From Brachyspira alvinipulli ATCC 51933 (GTDB lineage Bacteria > Spirochaetota > Brachyspiria > Brachyspirales > Brachyspiraceae): 64,000 bases of DNA. Shown piece by piece: positions 40,605-49,603 of the stretch; the stretch's first letter is position 1; the number at the start of each line of letters is the position of its first letter. Under the pieces are notes generated by a model that had not been told where the DNA came from, searched no databases, and saw nothing but the letters and a program-made list of their open reading frames with translations. The stretch lies in NCBI RefSeq assembly GCF_000518245.1, contig NZ_KI912402.1, positions 488,544 through 552,543 on the forward strand, written 5' to 3'. The position numbers and the translations under genes are program-made.

Positions 40605-41432
40605 TTAATTGTTTTTATTTTCTATAGAGTTTTTATCAATTTTATTGCTTTTATCTTTTATAATTTCTTCTCTTTCTTCTATTTTTATGGTATCTCCGTA
40701 AAATTTTGGCGGACGGTTTAATAATATATCAACAAACATTAATGCTCTTGCCCCTAATTCTCTTGGGAACTGTCTTATTCTGTATAGCTTTCTTACATTA
40801 TGAGCATTATAAGCTATAGCGTTTATTTTTTTCTGTCTTGCTATTAATATTGCTCTTTCATTATGAAAAGGCTGAGAAACTATAGTAAAATTACTAAGTT
40901 CAAAGACTTTATTTGCTCTTATTATTGAGTCTCTGGTTCTAAATCCTGCAAAATCTAAAAATATATGTTTTTTGTCTACTCCTAATCTTATTAAGTCTAA
41001 ACGCATTTGTCTAGGTTCATTGTAAGATCTGTATCTGTTGTCACCGCTTACTAATATAAATTTAACCTTTCCGCTTTTGTAAAGTTCATAAGCAGCATCC
41101 ATTCTAAACTTGAAATACATATTAATTTGTCCATTATAAAGATACTTACTTGTACCCAATACTAAAGCTACATCATTATATGGTATTTCTTCTAAAGACG
41201 AATATATATATTTTCTTGAGTATATGGAAACCGATAAATACGATACAAGCATAAATATTGCAGATATTATAATAATTTCAGGCATTAATATAAATGCAGA
41301 TATAAATATAAATATTATATAAGAAAATAATTTATATAGAAGATTTTTATTTTGTATATTTTTTTTAACTATTTTATAATTATCTTTTATTCTTAGTATT
41401 TTTTTATTGTATCTATTCTTTAATATATTCAT
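40605..41432 (-). CDS. SanA/YdcF-like DUF218 protein
   Basis: 275 residues with two hydrophobic segments near the N-terminus (about 36-70), then a DUF218 domain: DVALVLGTSKYLYNGQINMYFKFRMDAAYELYKSGKV, LVSGDNRYRSYNEP, DFAGFRTRDSIIRANKVF and VSQPFHNERAILIARQKKI. This arrangement matches SanA, an inner-membrane protein linked to envelope barrier function in enterobacteria. AGGA lies 6 bases before the ATG. It lies upstream of gltS on the same strand (15-base gap) and has a near-consensus promoter. Confidence 0.88.
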   Translation of the reverse strand: MNILKNRYNKKILRIKDNYKIVKKNIQNKNLLYKLFSYIIFIFISAFILMPEIIIISAIFMLVSYLSVSIYSRKYIYSSLEEIPYNDVALVLGTSKYLYNGQINMYFKFRMDAAYELYKSGKVKFILVSGDNRYRSYNEPRQMRLDLIRLGVDKKHIFLDFAGFRTRDSIIRANKVFELSNFTIVSQPFHNERAILIARQKKINAIAYNAHNVRKLYRIRQFPRELGARALMFVDILLNRPPKFYGDTIKIEEREEIIKDKSNKIDKNSIENKNN

Positions 41433-41458: not shown

Positions 41459-41486
41459 AGTATACTAAAATAATTTATATTGTCAA
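41459..41486 (-). promoter_or_regulatory. Promoter of the sanA-like gene and gltS
   Basis: Minus strand TTGACA (complement of 41481-41486), 16 bases, TATACT (complement of 41459-41464). Divergent from the ilv promoter. Confidence 0.75.
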
Positions 41487-41529: not shown

Positions 41530-41557
41530 TTGCAATATTATGTAAAAATATTATAAT
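41530..41557 (+). promoter_or_regulatory. Promoter of the ilv-leu leader and operon
   Basis: TTGCAA (41530-41535), 16 bases, TATAAT (41552-41557). Transcription should begin near 41564, about 20 bases before the leader peptide ATG, leaving a leader RNA of about 300 bases before ilvB. Confidence 0.75.
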
Positions 41558-41584
41558 ATTAGCAAATAAAAAAGGAGAATGATT

Positions 41585-41737
41585 ATGTCCTACGTTGCAA
41601 AAACAGGCATGTATTCAGTATTTGATAATTCAAATACTTTCTGTGTAAATAATAATTCTAAAAAATCTAATTTTTCTGCAATCAATAATATTAATATTCT
41701 CATCCTCCTATCTATTATTCTCAATATTCTGTTATAA
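41585..41737 (+). CDS. ilv-leu leader peptide (attenuator), 50 aa
   Basis: A short gene not previously marked, between the ilv promoter and ilvB. ATG 41585 has AAAGGAG 7 bases upstream, as good as any gene here. It reads 50 codons to TAA at 41735-41737. Residues 33-50 are INNINILILLSIILNILL: 7 Ile and 6 Leu in 18, exactly the end products of the operon that follows. This is how attenuation leaders look (ilvL, leuL): ribosome stalling at Ile or Leu codons changes folding of the downstream RNA. No Val codon lies in the run. A small membrane peptide is the alternative, but position and codon content favour a leader. Confidence 0.8.
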   Translation: MSYVAKTGMYSVFDNSNTFCVNNNSKKSNFSAINNINILILLSIILNILL

Positions 41738-41777
41738 TTTAATCTAATATATCAATAATTATACATTTATAACTACA

Positions 41778-41814
41778 ATAGAAATTTTAATTATAAATTT
41801 CTATAAGTAGAAAT
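41778..41814 (+). promoter_or_regulatory. Mutually exclusive stems between leader peptide and ilvB
   Basis: Segment B (41795-41804) can pair perfectly with A (41778-41787, ten pairs) or, over seven pairs, with C (41808-41814), since A and C both hold TAGAAAT. Only one stem can form at a time. No T-run follows, so the switch may act on translation or on a factor-dependent stop rather than as a simple intrinsic terminator. Confidence 0.55.
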
Positions 41815-41866
41815 ATTAAAAAATAAATTTAAGAAGGTTATAAAATTAATTTTAAAGGAGTTTGTA

Positions 41867-43540
41867 ATGAAGTTGAATGGTTCTGAAATAATAATGGAAG
41901 TTTTAATAGAACAGAACATAGATACTGTATTTGGTTATCCGGGCGGTGCTGCTTTATTTATATACGATGCTATTTATAAATATAGAGATAAAATAAAACA
42001 TATAATGCCTGTTGATGAAGTAGGTGCCTGTCATGCTGCTGACGGATATGCAAGAGCAAGCGGTAAAACAGGAGTTGTAATAGCTACAAGCGGACCAGGA
42101 GCTACTAATTTAGTAACACCTTTGGCAACAGCATATATGGATAGTGTTCCTTTAATTGCAATAACTGCTAATGTTCCTGAAAGTTTAATAGGTAAAGATT
42201 CATTCCAAGAGGTTTATATAGCTGGAATAACAATGCCTATAACTAAACATAATTTTGTAGTTAGAAAAATGGAAGATTTAGCTGATACATTAAGAAAAGC
42301 TTTTATGATAGCTAATACCGGAAGAAAAGGACCTGTTTTAATAGATATACCTAAGAATTTTACTTTTGCAGAAACAGAATTTGTATCAAGAAAAAAATTT
42401 GAACCTAAAAAAATTGGTATAACATCAGAAGATGAAAAAACAATAGAAGAAGTAGCAAAATTAATAAATGAATCTAAAAGACCTATAATATATTTCGGCG
42501 GAGGAGCAAAAGATTCCAGTGATAAATTAAGAGACTTTATGATTAATTCTAATATACCTTCTGTTCATACTTTGATGGGAGCTGGTGTATTGGGATATAA
42601 AGAAAAACTAAATATAGGACTTTTGGGAATGCATGGTTCTGTTACTGCTAATAAAGTAATGAATGAAGCAGATTTAATATTGGCTGTTGGAACTAGATTC
42701 AGCGATAGAGTAGCTTTGAATACTTCAAAATTCGGAGGTACTGCTAAGAAAGTTCATATAGATATTGACAGGAGCGAAATAAATAAAAATGTTCATGTTG
42801 ATTATAGTATAATAGGCGACTTAAATTATGTTTTGGATAGATTTAAAAAATTGGTAAAAAGAGTAAAAGATGATGAATGGGTAGAATATTTATCAGAATT
42901 AAGAGCTAAAGAGATGAAAGAAGATTCTGACAGAAATATAAAAAAAGAGGCTATTTATCCAAGCAAGGTTATGAATGTAATAGGAGAAAAAACCAAAGAT
43001 GAAGCTATATATGTTACAGATGTAGGACAGCATCAAATGTGGGCAGTTCAGTATATAAGACATATTAAACCTAGAAGTTTTATAACTAGCGGAGGTTTGG
43101 GTACTATGGGATTTGGATATGCTGCTGCTTTAGGTTCTCAGATTGCCAATCCAAATAGAAAGGTAATACATATAACAGGAGACGGATCTTTCTATATGAA
43201 TTTAAATGAGGTAGCTACTGCTGTAGAATATCAATTACCTGTAATAACAATTATATTAAATAATAGTACATTGGGTATGGTTAGACAATGGCAGACTATA
43301 TTTTATGATAAAAGATATTCAAGTACAGATATAAATAAGAAAATGGATTATGTTAAAGTTGCTGAAGGTTTTGGGGCTAAAGGTTTTAGATGTGAAACTA
43401 TAAAAGAATTTGAAAATGCTTTTGAAGAGGCTTTGAAATGCAAATGTCCAGTATGGATAGAATGTGTTATAGATAAAGATTTAAAAGTTTTACCTATGAT
43501 TCCAGCCGGCGGTACTATAGATGATATAATAGTAGATTAA
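41867..43540 (+). CDS. ilvB: Acetolactate synthase large subunit
   Basis: ThDP enzyme making acetolactate or acetohydroxybutyrate for Val/Leu/Ile. Residues: [15 protein letters not shown] with [20 protein letters not shown] (catalytic Glu), [39 protein letters not shown], and the ThDP/Mg motif [37 protein letters not shown]. 557 aa is the usual length for the anabolic, small-subunit-regulated type. AAAGGAG lies 6 bases before the ATG. First structural gene of the operon; ilvN follows in 18 bases. Confidence 0.97.
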   Translation: [557 protein letters not shown]

Positions 43541-43558
43541 TAATTACAGGAGTAAAAG

Positions 43559-44086
43559 ATGAACAGCAAACAAAGAAGAGTTTTAGTTTTATTTGTAGAT
43601 AATAGTTCAGGTGTATTAAATAGAATAACTTTATTATTCAGTCAAAAAGGATTTAATATAGAAACAATAACTTGTTCTGTAACATGTGTACCAAGCATAT
43701 CAAGAATGACTATAGTAACAGAAGGGGATGATTCTCATATAACACATATTATGAAACAAGCTTCAAAACTGATAGAGGTTCATTCTGTACATTTGATAGA
43801 TCATTTAAATAGCATAATAAGAGATTTGTTATTAGTAAAGATAGAAATTAATGATGCTAATAAACGTAAAGCATGCGATATAACTAATGCACATAACGGA
43901 CTTATACTTGATATAGGAAATAAAAGCATGATAGTTGAAATTACAGCTTCTGCATCTGTAATAGACGGATATTTAGAATCATTAAAGGATTTTAATATTT
44001 TAGAACTTTCAAGAACAGGCGTAACATCTATACAGCTTGGAGATGCAGTTCCTGATATGAATATAATAAATAATTTTGAATTTTAA
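43559..44086 (+). CDS. ilvN: Acetolactate synthase small (regulatory) subunit
   Basis: 175 residues with an N-terminal ACT domain (about 6-80): VLFVDNSSGVLNRITLLFSQKGFNIETITC, with the Gly and Asn of the valine-binding site. The C-terminal domain has the LVKIEIND start and SIIEITG-like MIVEITASASVIDGYLESL. It confers feedback inhibition on IlvB. Sometimes named ilvH. Confidence 0.95.
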   Translation: MNSKQRRVLVLFVDNSSGVLNRITLLFSQKGFNIETITCSVTCVPSISRMTIVTEGDDSHITHIMKQASKLIEVHSVHLIDHLNSIIRDLLLVKIEINDANKRKACDITNAHNGLILDIGNKSMIVEITASASVIDGYLESLKDFNILELSRTGVTSIQLGDAVPDMNIINNFEF

Positions 44087-44102
44087 ATATATTAAAAAAT
44101 AA

Positions 44103-45113
<1,011 letters not shown>

Positions 45114-45182
45114 TTATTATACATTTTGTAATCCAAAGCATCTTTTAAGTAAATGATGTTTAATTATAAAAGGGTTTTAACA

Positions 45183-46679
45183 ATGAGAAAGATTAAGATT
45201 TTTGATACTACTTTAAGAGATGGAGAACAATCTCCTGGTTGTACTATGAATTTGGCTGAAAAATTAGAGATGGCAGCTGAATTAGATAAATTGGGTGTTG
45301 ATGTTATAGAAGCAGGATTTGCTATATGTTCTGATGATGACTTCAATGCTATAAGAGAAGTAAGTAAAGTTGTAGAGAATGCTAAATTAGCAAGTTTGGC
45401 AAGATGCAATAAAAAGGATATAGACAGAGCTTATGAAGCACTTACTGAGGCAAAACATCCTATGCTTCATACTTTTATAGCTACAAGCGATATACATTTA
45501 AAGCACAAATTAGAGATGACTAGAGAGCAGGTATTAGAAATAATAAAAGAATCTGTTTCTTATGCTAAAACAAAATTTGATTTTATAGAGTTTTCTGCTG
45601 AAGATGCTTCAAGAAGCGATAGAGAATTTTTAGCCAAAGCATATTCTGTTGCAATAGAGAATGGTGCTACTACAATAAATGTTCCTGATACTGTTGGATA
45701 TACTACTCCATTAGAAATGGCAGATTTGATAAAGTATTTAAAAGAGAATGTTAAAGGTATAGAAAATGTTGATATATCCGTGCATTGTCATGATGATTTA
45801 GGACTTGGCACTGCTAACTCTTTGTCTGCTGTTTTGGCTGGAGCTACTCAGGTGGAATGTACTATTAATGGCATAGGTGAGCGTGCAGGAAATGCTAGTT
45901 TGGAAGAAATAGTAATGGGCATTAAAACTAGAAAAGATTTTTATAATGCTTATACTGATATTAATACTAAACGTATTTATAAAATTTCTAAATTATTATC
46001 TACAATTTCTGGTATGGTAGTTGCTCCTAATAAAGCTATAGTAGGTGCTAATGCTTTTGCTCATGAGGCAGGAATACATCAACATGGCGTATTGAAAGAA
46101 CGTTCTACTTATGAGATTATGAATGTTGAAGATATAGGAATACCTCAAAATAAAATGGTATTAGGTAAACATTCCGGTAAGCATGCTTTCAAAGATAGAA
46201 TTGAATCTTTGGGATATGATATAGATGATAAGGCTTTGGAAGATGCATTTGTAAAATTCAAAAATTTGGCTGATAAAAAGAAAATAGTTACTGATACTGA
46301 TATTGAAGCATTGTTAATAGGAAATACTAGTGTAGAAAATCCTATGTATACTTTAAAAAGTTTTATGGTTAATGATAGTGATTCTATATCTTCTTTTGCT
46401 TCCGTATCTATACTTGATAATAAAGAAAATGTTGTGGAAGGCATAGGAAAAGGAAACGGACCTATTGATGCTGCATTCGGTGCTATTGATACTGTTACAT
46501 CTAATAGAGCTAAATTGGTAAATTATAGTATTAATGCTATCACTGAAGGTGAGGATGCTTTGGGAGAAGTTATTGTAAGATTAGCTTCTGATGATAAAAC
46601 TGTAATCGGCAGAGCTGTCAGTACAGATATTATTGAGGCTAGCTTAATGGCTTATATTAATGGTTTGAATAAATTATAA
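45183..46679 (+). CDS. leuA: 2-isopropylmalate synthase
   Basis: Condenses acetyl-CoA with 2-oxoisovalerate, the first leucine-specific step. TIM barrel: IFDTTLRDGEQSPGCTMN, HTFIATSDIHLKHKL, SVHCHDDLGLGTANSLSAVLAGA (metal HxH) and GIGERAGNASLEE. A linker with HQHGVLKERSTYEIM and GKHSGKHAF follows, then the C-terminal LeuA dimer/regulatory domain (about 380-498). I use ATG 45183 with AAAAGGG upstream; in-frame ATGs at 45153/45156 lack a site and add ten residues outside the family. Citramalate synthase is less likely given leuCDB downstream. Confidence 0.94.
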   Translation: MRKIKIFDTTLRDGEQSPGCTMNLAEKLEMAAELDKLGVDVIEAGFAICSDDDFNAIREVSKVVENAKLASLARCNKKDIDRAYEALTEAKHPMLHTFIATSDIHLKHKLEMTREQVLEIIKESVSYAKTKFDFIEFSAEDASRSDREFLAKAYSVAIENGATTINVPDTVGYTTPLEMADLIKYLKENVKGIENVDISVHCHDDLGLGTANSLSAVLAGATQVECTINGIGERAGNASLEEIVMGIKTRKDFYNAYTDINTKRIYKISKLLSTISGMVVAPNKAIVGANAFAHEAGIHQHGVLKERSTYEIMNVEDIGIPQNKMVLGKHSGKHAFKDRIESLGYDIDDKALEDAFVKFKNLADKKKIVTDTDIEALLIGNTSVENPMYTLKSFMVNDSDSISSFASVSILDNKENVVEGIGKGNGPIDAAFGAIDTVTSNRAKLVNYSINAITEGEDALGEVIVRLASDDKTVIGRAVSTDIIEASLMAYINGLNKL

Positions 46680-46690
46680 TAATTATTTAT

Positions 46691-46713
46691 AAGAGGCTTT
46701 ATATAAGCCTCTT
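46691..46713 (+). terminator. Hairpin between leuA and leuC
   Basis: AAGAGGCTT (46691-46699) and AAGCCTCTT (46705-46713) are perfect complements, 5-base loop, followed by a broken T-tract (TACTATTTTT). It may attenuate transcription or stabilise RNA ends, dividing ilvBNC-leuA from leuCDB. Confidence 0.65.
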
Positions 46714-46745
46714 TACTATTTTTAAATTAATTTAAGGATATGGAT

Positions 46746-47993
46746 ATGACTATTACTCAGAAAATTTTAGCAGCACATGCCGGTGTTGATAAAGTTGAAG
46801 CAGGCGAACTTATCATGGTTAAAACTGATTTAGTTTTAGGAAATGATATAACAAGTCCTGTTGCTATAAATGAATTTGAAAAATATGGATTTAATAAAGT
46901 TTTTGATAAAGAAAAAATAGCTTTGGTTATGGATCACTTTGCTCCGAATAAAGATATCAAAGCTGCAGAGCAATGCAAACAATGCAGAGATTTTGCTAAT
47001 AAGCATGATATTACAAATTATTATGATGTAGGAGATATGGGAGTTGAGCATGCTCTTTTACCTGAAAAAGGTTTAGTAGCACCGGGTGAAGTTATAATAG
47101 GGGCAGACTCTCATACTTGTACTTACGGAGCTTTCGGGGCTTTTTCTACAGGAGTTGGAAGTACTGATATGGCTGCTGCTATGGCTACAGGCCAGGTTTG
47201 GTTTAAAGTTCCTTCTGCTATTAAATTTAATCTTAAAGGAAAATTAAAACCAAATGTATCCGGTAAAGATGTTATACTTCATATTATAGGTATGATAGGA
47301 GTTGACGGAGCATTGTATAAATCTATGGAGTTTAGAGGTGAAGGAGTTTCATCTTTAACTATGGACGATAGAGCTTGTATTGCTAATATGGCTATTGAGG
47401 CAGGAGCAAAAAATGGAATATTTGAAGTTGATGATCAAACTATTGAGTTTTTAAAAGATATAGTAAAAAGAGATTATACTGTTTTCAAAGCTGATGATGA
47501 TGCAGTTTATGATAAAGAGTATGATATTGATTTGTCTTCTATAGAGCCTACAGTTGCATGTCCTCATTTACCAGAGAACACAAAAGAAGCTAAAGAATTA
47601 AAAGATATAAAAGTTGATCAGGTTGTTATTGGTTCTTGTACTAATGGAAGATTATCCGATATGGCAATAGCTGCTAATATTTTAAAAGGAAAAAAAGTAG
47701 CTAAAAATGTAAGATGTATAATTATCCCTGCTACTCAGAAAGTTTATAAAGAATGTATAAAATTAGGTTATATGGATATATTTATTGATGCAGGCTGTGC
47801 TGTATCAACTCCTACATGCGGACCTTGTTTAGGCGGATATATGGGAATACTTGCTCATGATGAGGTTGCTGTTACTACAACTAATAGAAACTTTGTAGGA
47901 AGAATGGGGGATAAAACTTCAAAAGTGTATTTGGCTAGTCCTGCTACTGCTGCATATAGTGCTATAACAGGATACATAACAGAGCCTAAATAA
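46746..47993 (+). CDS. leuC: 3-isopropylmalate dehydratase large subunit
   Basis: Aconitase-superfamily 4Fe-4S enzyme, 415 residues (short, HacA/LeuC2-like class). [13 protein letters not shown] at the start; [32 protein letters not shown]; cluster cysteines in VIGSCTNGR and [15 protein letters not shown] choose ATG 46746: AAGGA is 7 bases upstream, but only one base before the ATG at 46740. Works with LeuD, 23 bases downstream. Confidence 0.95.
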
Positions 47994-48016
47994 TTATTTG
48001 TAAGGAGATATTGTAA

Positions 48017-48508
48017 ATGAAAGCTAAAGGTTTTGTTCATAAATATGGTGATAATGTTGATACAGATGTTATTATTCCAGCAAGATATTTAAATACTTCC
48101 AATCATAAGGAGCTTGCTGCTCATTGTATGGAAGATATTGATAAAGATTTTGTAAGTAAAGTAAAGTCAGGCGATATAATGGTAGGAGGGGAGAATTTTG
48201 GATGCGGTTCTTCAAGAGAGCATGCGCCTATTGCTATTAAAGAGTCTGGAATATCATGTGTTATAGCATCTTCTTTTGCAAGAATATTTTATAGAAATTC
48301 AATAAATATAGGACTTGCTATATTAGAATGTGATGAGGCTAGTAAAAAAATAAATTCCGGTGATGAAGTTGAAGTTGATTTTGATAATGGTATAATAAAG
48401 AATATAACTAAAAATGAAAGTTATAAAGCAGAGCCTTTTCCAGAGTTTATCAAAAATATTATTAACTCTAATGGGCTTTTGAACTCTATAAAAAATTATA
48501 AAGGATGA
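48017..48508 (+). CDS. leuD: 3-isopropylmalate dehydratase small subunit
   Basis: 163-residue swivel domain. [59 protein letters not shown] are diagnostic. The short length matches the short LeuC type. AAGGAG lies before the ATG. Forms the isomerase with LeuC. Confidence 0.96.
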
Positions 48509-48514
48509 TTATTT

Positions 48515-49603
48515 ATGGAAAAAAATATTGTTGTTATTAAAGGAGATGGCGTAGGTCCTGAGGTAGTAGGAAAAGCCATAGATGTACTTAATAGAATATC
48601 TGAAAAATATTCTCATAAGTTTAATCTTGAATATGTGGATATGGGAGGATGTTCTATAGACAAATATGGAGTACCTCTTACAGATGAAAATGTAGAAAAA
48701 TGCATTAAGTCTGATGCTGTTCTTTTAGGTTCTGTAGGCGGTCCTAAATGGGATAAAGTTGATCCTGATAAGAGACCTGAAAGAGGTTTATTAAAACTTC
48801 GTAAAGAGATGAATCTTTATGCCAATATTAGACCTACAAAAATATTAAAATCTTTAGAATATGCCTCTCCTCTTAAAGAAACTATATGTAAGGATATGAT
48901 AGATTTTATCATGGTTAGAGAGCTTACAGGAGGTGTTTATTTTGGGGAGCATAAATTTGAAACAGTAAATGGCGTTAAGCAAGCTACAGATTTAATGCTT
49001 TATACTGAAACAGAAATAAGAAGAATAGGTAAGGTTGCTTTTGATTTGGCTAGAAATTTAAAAAGACCTTTGACTTCTGTTGATAAGGCAAATGTTCTTC
49101 ATACTTCTAAATTATGGCGTGAAGTTATGAATGCTTTATCCAAAGAATATAGCGATGTAGAATATAATGATATGTATGTTGATAATGCCGCTATGCAGAT
49201 TGCCGCTAATCCTTCACAATTTGGTGTTATAGTTACAGAAAATATGTTTGGAGATATACTTTCTGATGAAGCTAGTGTTATAAGCGGTTCTATTGGTATG
49301 GCACCTTCTGCAAGTCTTTCTGATGGAAGTTTAGGATTATATGAACCTATTCATGGATCTGCTCCTGATATTGCCGGAAATGATTTAGCTAATCCTATAG
49401 GTACTATACTTTCTCTTGCTATGATGTTTAGATATTCATTTGGTATGAATGATGAAGCTGATGATATTGATAATGCTGTTGTTAGAGCTATAGATGAAGG
49501 TTATAGAACACGTGATATAATGCCTAAACATAATATGATGGCTTATTTATATAAAGAAGTGAAATGCTCTGAGATGGGTGATATAATAGTATCTAACATA
49601 TAA
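48515..49603 (+). CDS. leuB: 3-isopropylmalate dehydrogenase
   Basis: NAD-dependent beta-decarboxylating dehydrogenase, 362 residues. GDGVGPEV at the start, LLGSVGGPKWD, substrate loop LLKLRKEMNLYANIRP, VRELTGGVYFGE, VDKANVLHTSKLWR with the catalytic Lys, and GSIGMAPSASL followed by EPIHGSAPDIAGND. Last gene of the operon, six bases after leuD. ilvD, ilvE and ilvA are not in the window. Confidence 0.96.
   Translation: MEKNIVVIKGDGVGPEVVGKAIDVLNRISEKYSHKFNLEYVDMGGCSIDKYGVPLTDENVEKCIKSDAVLLGSVGGPKWDKVDPDKRPERGLLKLRKEMNLYANIRPTKILKSLEYASPLKETICKDMIDFIMVRELTGGVYFGEHKFETVNGVKQATDLMLYTETEIRRIGKVAFDLARNLKRPLTSVDKANVLHTSKLWREVMNALSKEYSDVEYNDMYVDNAAMQIAANPSQFGVIVTENMFGDILSDEASVISGSIGMAPSASLSDGSLGLYEPIHGSAPDIAGNDLANPIGTILSLAMMFRYSFGMNDEADDIDNAVVRAIDEGYRTRDIMPKHNMMAYLYKEVKCSEMGDIIVSNI

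Follow-up and report, generated by a model that had tools for sequence, protein, structure and literature searches.

How does Brachyspira alvinipulli control its branched-chain amino acid (BCAA) operon, and is a short open reading frame (ORF) directly before ilvB part of that control? The question is raised by a 64,000-nucleotide (nt) stretch of the ATCC 51933 genome (NZ_KI912402.1, positions 488,544 to 552,543; hereafter the window, in whose own numbering all positions are given), in which seven ilv and leu genes are preceded by a 50-codon ORF that ends in a run of isoleucine and leucine codons. On the sequence evidence, this upstream ORF (uORF) very probably encodes a leader peptide that senses charged tRNA-Leu and tRNA-Ile (and tRNA-Val); ribosome-stalling regulation is strongly supported because the run is conserved, is rich in rare BCAA codons and is present throughout the genus. 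The features on which this reading is built are as follows.

41585..41737, plus strand: leader ORF, 50 codons plus TAA, open in frame in 24/24 Brachyspira genomes
41571..41577, plus strand: leader Shine-Dalgarno (SD) sequence AAAGGAG, of the same type and in the same place in 24/24 loci
41530..41557, plus strand: putative leader promoter, −35 TTGCAA, 16-nt spacer, −10 TATAAT, scoring 10/12 in a consensus scan
41687..41734, plus strand: putative Ile/Leu regulatory codon run, 16 codons with many rare synonyms, recognized from sequence, codon counts and conservation
41867..49603, plus strand: ilvB-ilvN-ilvC-leuA-leuC-leuD-leuB operon, the proposed target of regulation, assigned with NCBIfam

A first-pass annotation of the window had given the coordinates, start, stop, 50-residue length and SD of this ORF exactly: it opens at ATG 41585, closes at TAA 41735-41737 and would yield the product MSYVAKTGMYSVFDNSNTFCVNNNSKKSNFSAINNINILILLSIILNILL, and the GGAG of its SD ends at 41577, 7 nt 5′ of the ATG. 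An in-frame ATG at 41579 was rejected as the start because it lies too near the SD. The promoter claimed upstream of the leader was recovered by our scan as a putative element that ends 27 nt 5′ of the ATG; it is conserved in most relatives, with the block ATATTATAATA kept across the long-leader Brachyspira loci. The claimed 13 Ile/Leu codons among the last 18 were confirmed as well (binomial P = 1.6e-6 at one place, using window amino-acid frequencies). The description of the ilv-leu operon as complete was slightly generous because ilvD, ilvE and ilvA lie outside the cluster, although ilvBNC-leuACDB stands as annotated. Isoleucine is common in random AT-rich sequence, and the ORF might in principle be a chance product of AT-rich intergenic DNA; given the P value above, a frame conserved in all 24 genomes and C-rich rare codons that are the opposite of what AT-rich chance would supply, this explanation is exceedingly improbable. 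Near the leader promoter, at 41459-41486, is a near-consensus minus-strand promoter (TTGACA-16-TATACT) that would serve the divergent SanA-like gene (40605-41432).

The window genome (G000, a 3.42 Mb Brachyspira genome) has an ilvB that shares 87% identity with the one in a B. pilosicoli record. In our set of 26 Brachyspira genomes, ilvB is present in 25, and 24 have sequence upstream of it (G023 was left out, its contig ending within ilvB, and locus L031 is a repeat of L022). All 24 carry the uORF before ilvB, with a length of 24-52 codons that changes always in frame and a stop codon 92-134 nt from ilvB. One proposed check had been whether relatives keep the Ile/Leu run while the rest of the leader varies, and this is the pattern found in 24/24 genomes: mean pairwise nucleotide identity is 0.79 in the run and 0.64 in the N-terminal part, which is variable and where substitutions show little codon constraint. 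The shortest uORF, of 24 codons, is that of the B. pilosicoli type (MKSFFKHFNQTNISIILLSLIIIL), and two deep-branching loci with 75% identical ilvB retain ILNILLSILINIL and IIVNLVLSILINIL. These comparisons also bear on the idea that the ORF encodes a functional small hydrophobic, perhaps membrane, protein that merely precedes ilvB. The hydrophobic C-terminal run and the ORF's own SD and promoter-like sequence would suit such a protein, but the length spread (24-52 residues), the free N terminus with its unconstrained codons, the invariable position next to ilvB and the rare BCAA codons, for which an ordinary protein would have no evident need, make it very unlikely. Within the B. pilosicoli-type clade (L016, L018-L020 and L022), a second ATG nearer the SD opens an overlapping ORF of 12-13 codons (MYEVIFQTFQSN / MNNEVIFQTFKSN) in a frame different from that of the leader. 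In a Brachyspira genome of 2.0 Mb (G019) ilvB was not found, and the organism is possibly a BCAA auxotroph.

The codons of the run carry a signature of their own, which we counted over 18 distinct 16-codon runs and compared with 2.4 Mb of a relative (G003), the source of all codon-usage, terminator and uORF statistics given here. Leucine is encoded by CTC 38, CTG 18, TTA 15, CTT 13, CTA 10 and TTG 1 (n = 95), whereas CTC and CTG, the rarest Leu codons, each make up 1.6-1.7% of those in the genome, and in 24/24 leaders the rare Leu codon closest to the stop is CTG. Isoleucine is encoded by ATT 72, ATC 23 and ATA 3 (n = 98), against a genomic ATA share of 66%, and valine by GTC in 11/11 cases, against 2%. 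Asparagine and serine in the same runs keep their normal usage (AAC 3/21 versus 11.5% genomic; TCC 0/15), so the codon shift is mainly tied to the amino acids made by the operon; Phe TTC (5/6), in small numbers, is the sole exception. A decoding-based sensor predicts just such a shift. The choice between C- and T-ending synonyms is skewed further, with CTC/(CTC+CTT) at 32/43 in the runs versus 6% in the genome and GTC/(GTC+GTT) at 7/7 versus 4%. Since tRNA-Leu(GAG) is the expected reader of both CTC and CTT and the only valine tRNA found is Val-UAC, these preferences call for a further explanation: the speed of decoding, or some function of the C-rich tract as RNA. A six-frame search for rare-codon Ile/Leu/Val windows returned 371 hits, many presumably antisense to genes, and was uninformative on uniqueness. 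Taken broadly, the locus has what marks a BCAA leader peptide: an ORF with an SD and promoter-like sequence before a BCAA operon, a conserved run of end-product codons and rare synonyms.

If the run is the sensor, what is the output? The arrangement had been called the hallmark of ribosome-stalling attenuation; the sensor half of that description is borne out by the run, its rare codons and their conservation, but the terminator half, sought in every species, is absent. The leader anatomy is compatible with classical transcription attenuation, in which terminator and antiterminator hairpins alternate, and another genus of the same family has such a system: at L266:1331-1500, a 24-residue leader (MQSLLVIIIIAILVAFYSVTQREA) is followed by a strong U-tract terminator before ilvB and is, as judged from its sequence, a classical attenuator. 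That locus resembles Brachyspira in its ilvB-ilvN-ilvC gene order and in a leader stop 92 nt before ilvB, and differs in its peptide, its fewer rare codons and its terminator (−17.5 kcal/mol), our positive control. Between run and ilvB in 23 Brachyspira loci, no hairpin with a U-tract was found, the best candidate reaching −5.1 kcal/mol under lenient rules, where the L266 control scored −17.8 kcal/mol, and the hairpins before T-rich stretches in L011, L013, L014, L017 and L021 sit in the N-terminal part of the ORF, upstream of the run. Terminators are readily detected elsewhere in the genus: among 386 convergent gene ends of a Brachyspira genome, 39% have a hairpin of −9 kcal/mol or better followed by a U-tract, compared with 0% of shuffles. 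Because none appears in the 23 loci while the same signal is seen genome-wide and in L266, classical attenuation of the trp/leu/his type is, on sequence criteria, not what Brachyspira uses, and we consider this rival most unlikely. Searches for a T-box (RF00230) in the window and its own genome, and for other Rfam families in the Brachyspira leader region, gave no match.

An output without a terminator can be drawn from two further features and the run itself, which contains CCTCCT, a sequence complementary to SD sequences.

41738..41866, plus strand: untranslated spacer of 129 nt, without an intrinsic terminator
41855..41860, plus strand: ilvB SD AAGGAG, proposed partner of CUCCU, from a consensus fold of 17 loci

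We infer that the leader is translated and that stalling within it controls masking of the ilvB SD and thereby expression. Ribosomes starting at 41585 would move through the Ile/Leu run with its rare synonyms. A shortage of charged tRNA-Leu or tRNA-Ile (or of tRNA-Val in the relatives that use GTC) would make a ribosome stall there and shield the run; given enough amino acids, it would finish and depart, exposing the pyrimidine-rich run (CUCCU), which could then pair with the ilvB SD (AGGAG) and reduce ilvB translation. Lowered ilvB translation would probably lead to Rho-dependent polarity into the operon. In the consensus fold, CUCCU:AGGAG is the only long-range helix. In most loci, the predicted pairing between run and ilvB SD is stronger than genomic codon usage would give (mean rank 0.12), and masking the run by a ribosome clearly lowers predicted SD pairing in roughly a third of species.

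Several observations weigh against SD masking. For the set of codons present, the order shows no clear tuning to SD pairing (mean permutation rank 0.32), and the leader's own SD pairs with the run more strongly than does the ilvB SD. Single-sequence folds favor the helix only in some species, with a pairing probability of ∼0 for the window strain in the full fold, and L021, L023 and L024 have either CUCUU in place of CUCCU or no such motif. The ilvB SD never varies, so the helix is beyond covariation testing; folded as a whole, the region shows no unusual stability (z −1.2). Finally, the model gives no part to the spacer element that is most strongly conserved across the long-leader clade, a hairpin located as follows.

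41796..41815, plus strand: small hairpin TTTCTATAAGTAGAAA, 20 nt, with no U-tract 3′ of it, 0.905 mean identity over 17 loci, from the consensus fold

Folded alone, this hairpin has a free energy of −3.7 kcal/mol, and in the window strain it is mutually exclusive with a longer hairpin that starts near 41778 (AGAAATTT...AAATTTCT). The block has a single occurrence in the 2.4 Mb scanned from a relative and is absent from the B. pilosicoli-type and deep branches. The conserved TATAAAAT before ilvB was considered as a second promoter and rejected, with no fitting −35 when read by eye.

The same sensor could instead act through Rho-dependent termination, the departing ribosome freeing the C-rich, G-poor run for Rho and transcription ending in the 92-134 nt spacer. 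Rho is encoded in 26/26 Brachyspira genomes, above the curated cut-off, and the lack of an intrinsic terminator between run and ilvB suits this output. The run has 13 C and 1 G in 60 nt, placing it in the top 0.2% of plus-strand positions in the window, and the enriched rare codons are mostly of the N-U-C form, which creates YC dinucleotides. There are precedents in the proposal that cys leaders lacking a terminator are under Rho control of the tna type (PMC1262725) and in the combination of a uORF with Rho at E. coli topAI (PMC12121999). Against it, the excess of C over G ranks no higher than the top 3-5% when set beside 716 upstream regions from a relative, and L021, L023 and L024 show it weakly; AAC and TCC are not enriched in the runs, and the codon bias is therefore not a general demand for C; and Rho utilization (rut) sites are not provable from sequence. 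Rho-dependent termination is the chief rival to SD masking as the output, and we regard it as possible but rather unlikely. SD masking is ranked slightly ahead because of the precedent of the actinobacterial LEU element (PMC1262725), and the two can act together, as proposed for topAI (PMC12121999). The whole chain, in which a BCAA-sensing leader controls ilvBNC-leuACDB through masking of the ilvB SD, is finely balanced and is put forward tentatively. More tentative still is the wider proposal that in Brachyspira the same C-rich nucleotides serve both as sensor, through rare BCAA codons, and as cis repressor, as SD antisense or Rho-loading site, and that Brachyspiraceae contain terminator-bearing and terminator-less BCAA attenuators. 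If true, the dual role would explain the choice of CTC and GTC over CTT and GTT.

That ilv operons can be preceded by BCAA leaders is well established. The actinobacterial LEU element, which precedes leuA (PMC1262725), resembles the Brachyspira leader in having a leader ORF with a run of Leu codons and no classical terminator, and its run can pair with the leuA SD as the Brachyspira run may pair with that of ilvB; it differs in its target (leuA rather than ilvB) and run (Leu rather than Ile and Leu), and the sequences are unrelated. A pseudoknot has been described in the LEU element. The ilv attenuators of Corynebacterium, Mycobacterium and Staphylococcus (PMC10272879, PMC13236596, PMC5794164) share a BCAA-rich leader peptide before the operon, but have an intrinsic terminator with a U-tract, which Brachyspira lacks. 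Among spirochaetes, the Leptospira ilvB motif likewise has a predicted BCAA-rich (BCAA/Thr-rich) uORF before ilvB (∼70 nt) (PMC8632094, PMC10272879). The suggestion that such a leader was new for this type of organism was therefore partly wrong; for Brachyspira itself, no amino-acid leader peptide is described in the literature examined. As far as that literature shows, the novelty lies in the Brachyspira system as such, its lack of a terminator, its codon signature and the difference between genera of one family.

Beyond Brachyspira, a simple scan of 32 spirochaete loci from outside the family and five Treponema/Spirochaetales loci found no clear SD-preceded uORF with an Ile/Leu/Val run before ilvB, a result that leaves absence unproven and may miss the Leptospira uORFs. 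In a third genus of the family (L262:1388-1543), an Ile/Leu-rich uORF (MLFKIKKNVSLKKEIINIILDIILKIILQ...) with a good SD and common codons overruns the ilvB start out of frame, directly after the apparent end of ilvD, and may be a chance ORF. A scan of 87 uORFs in 2.4 Mb of a relative gave no further convincing biosynthetic leader, its top hits resembling tandem repeats, small genes and the tail of a ribosomal protein. At G003:C1:832929-833001, a tandem 15-base repeat encodes IASHR four times, has an SD, is rich in rare codons and lies 85 nt before an MBOAT-family gene.

For Brachyspira, the leader adds a likely starvation sensor for the BCAA operon in every checkable genome that has the operon. 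The amino-acid-specific rare-codon signature offers a route to terminator-less leaders missed by terminator-based searches, and the occurrence of leaders with and without a terminator in one family provides a way to ask how attenuation shifts between output mechanisms.
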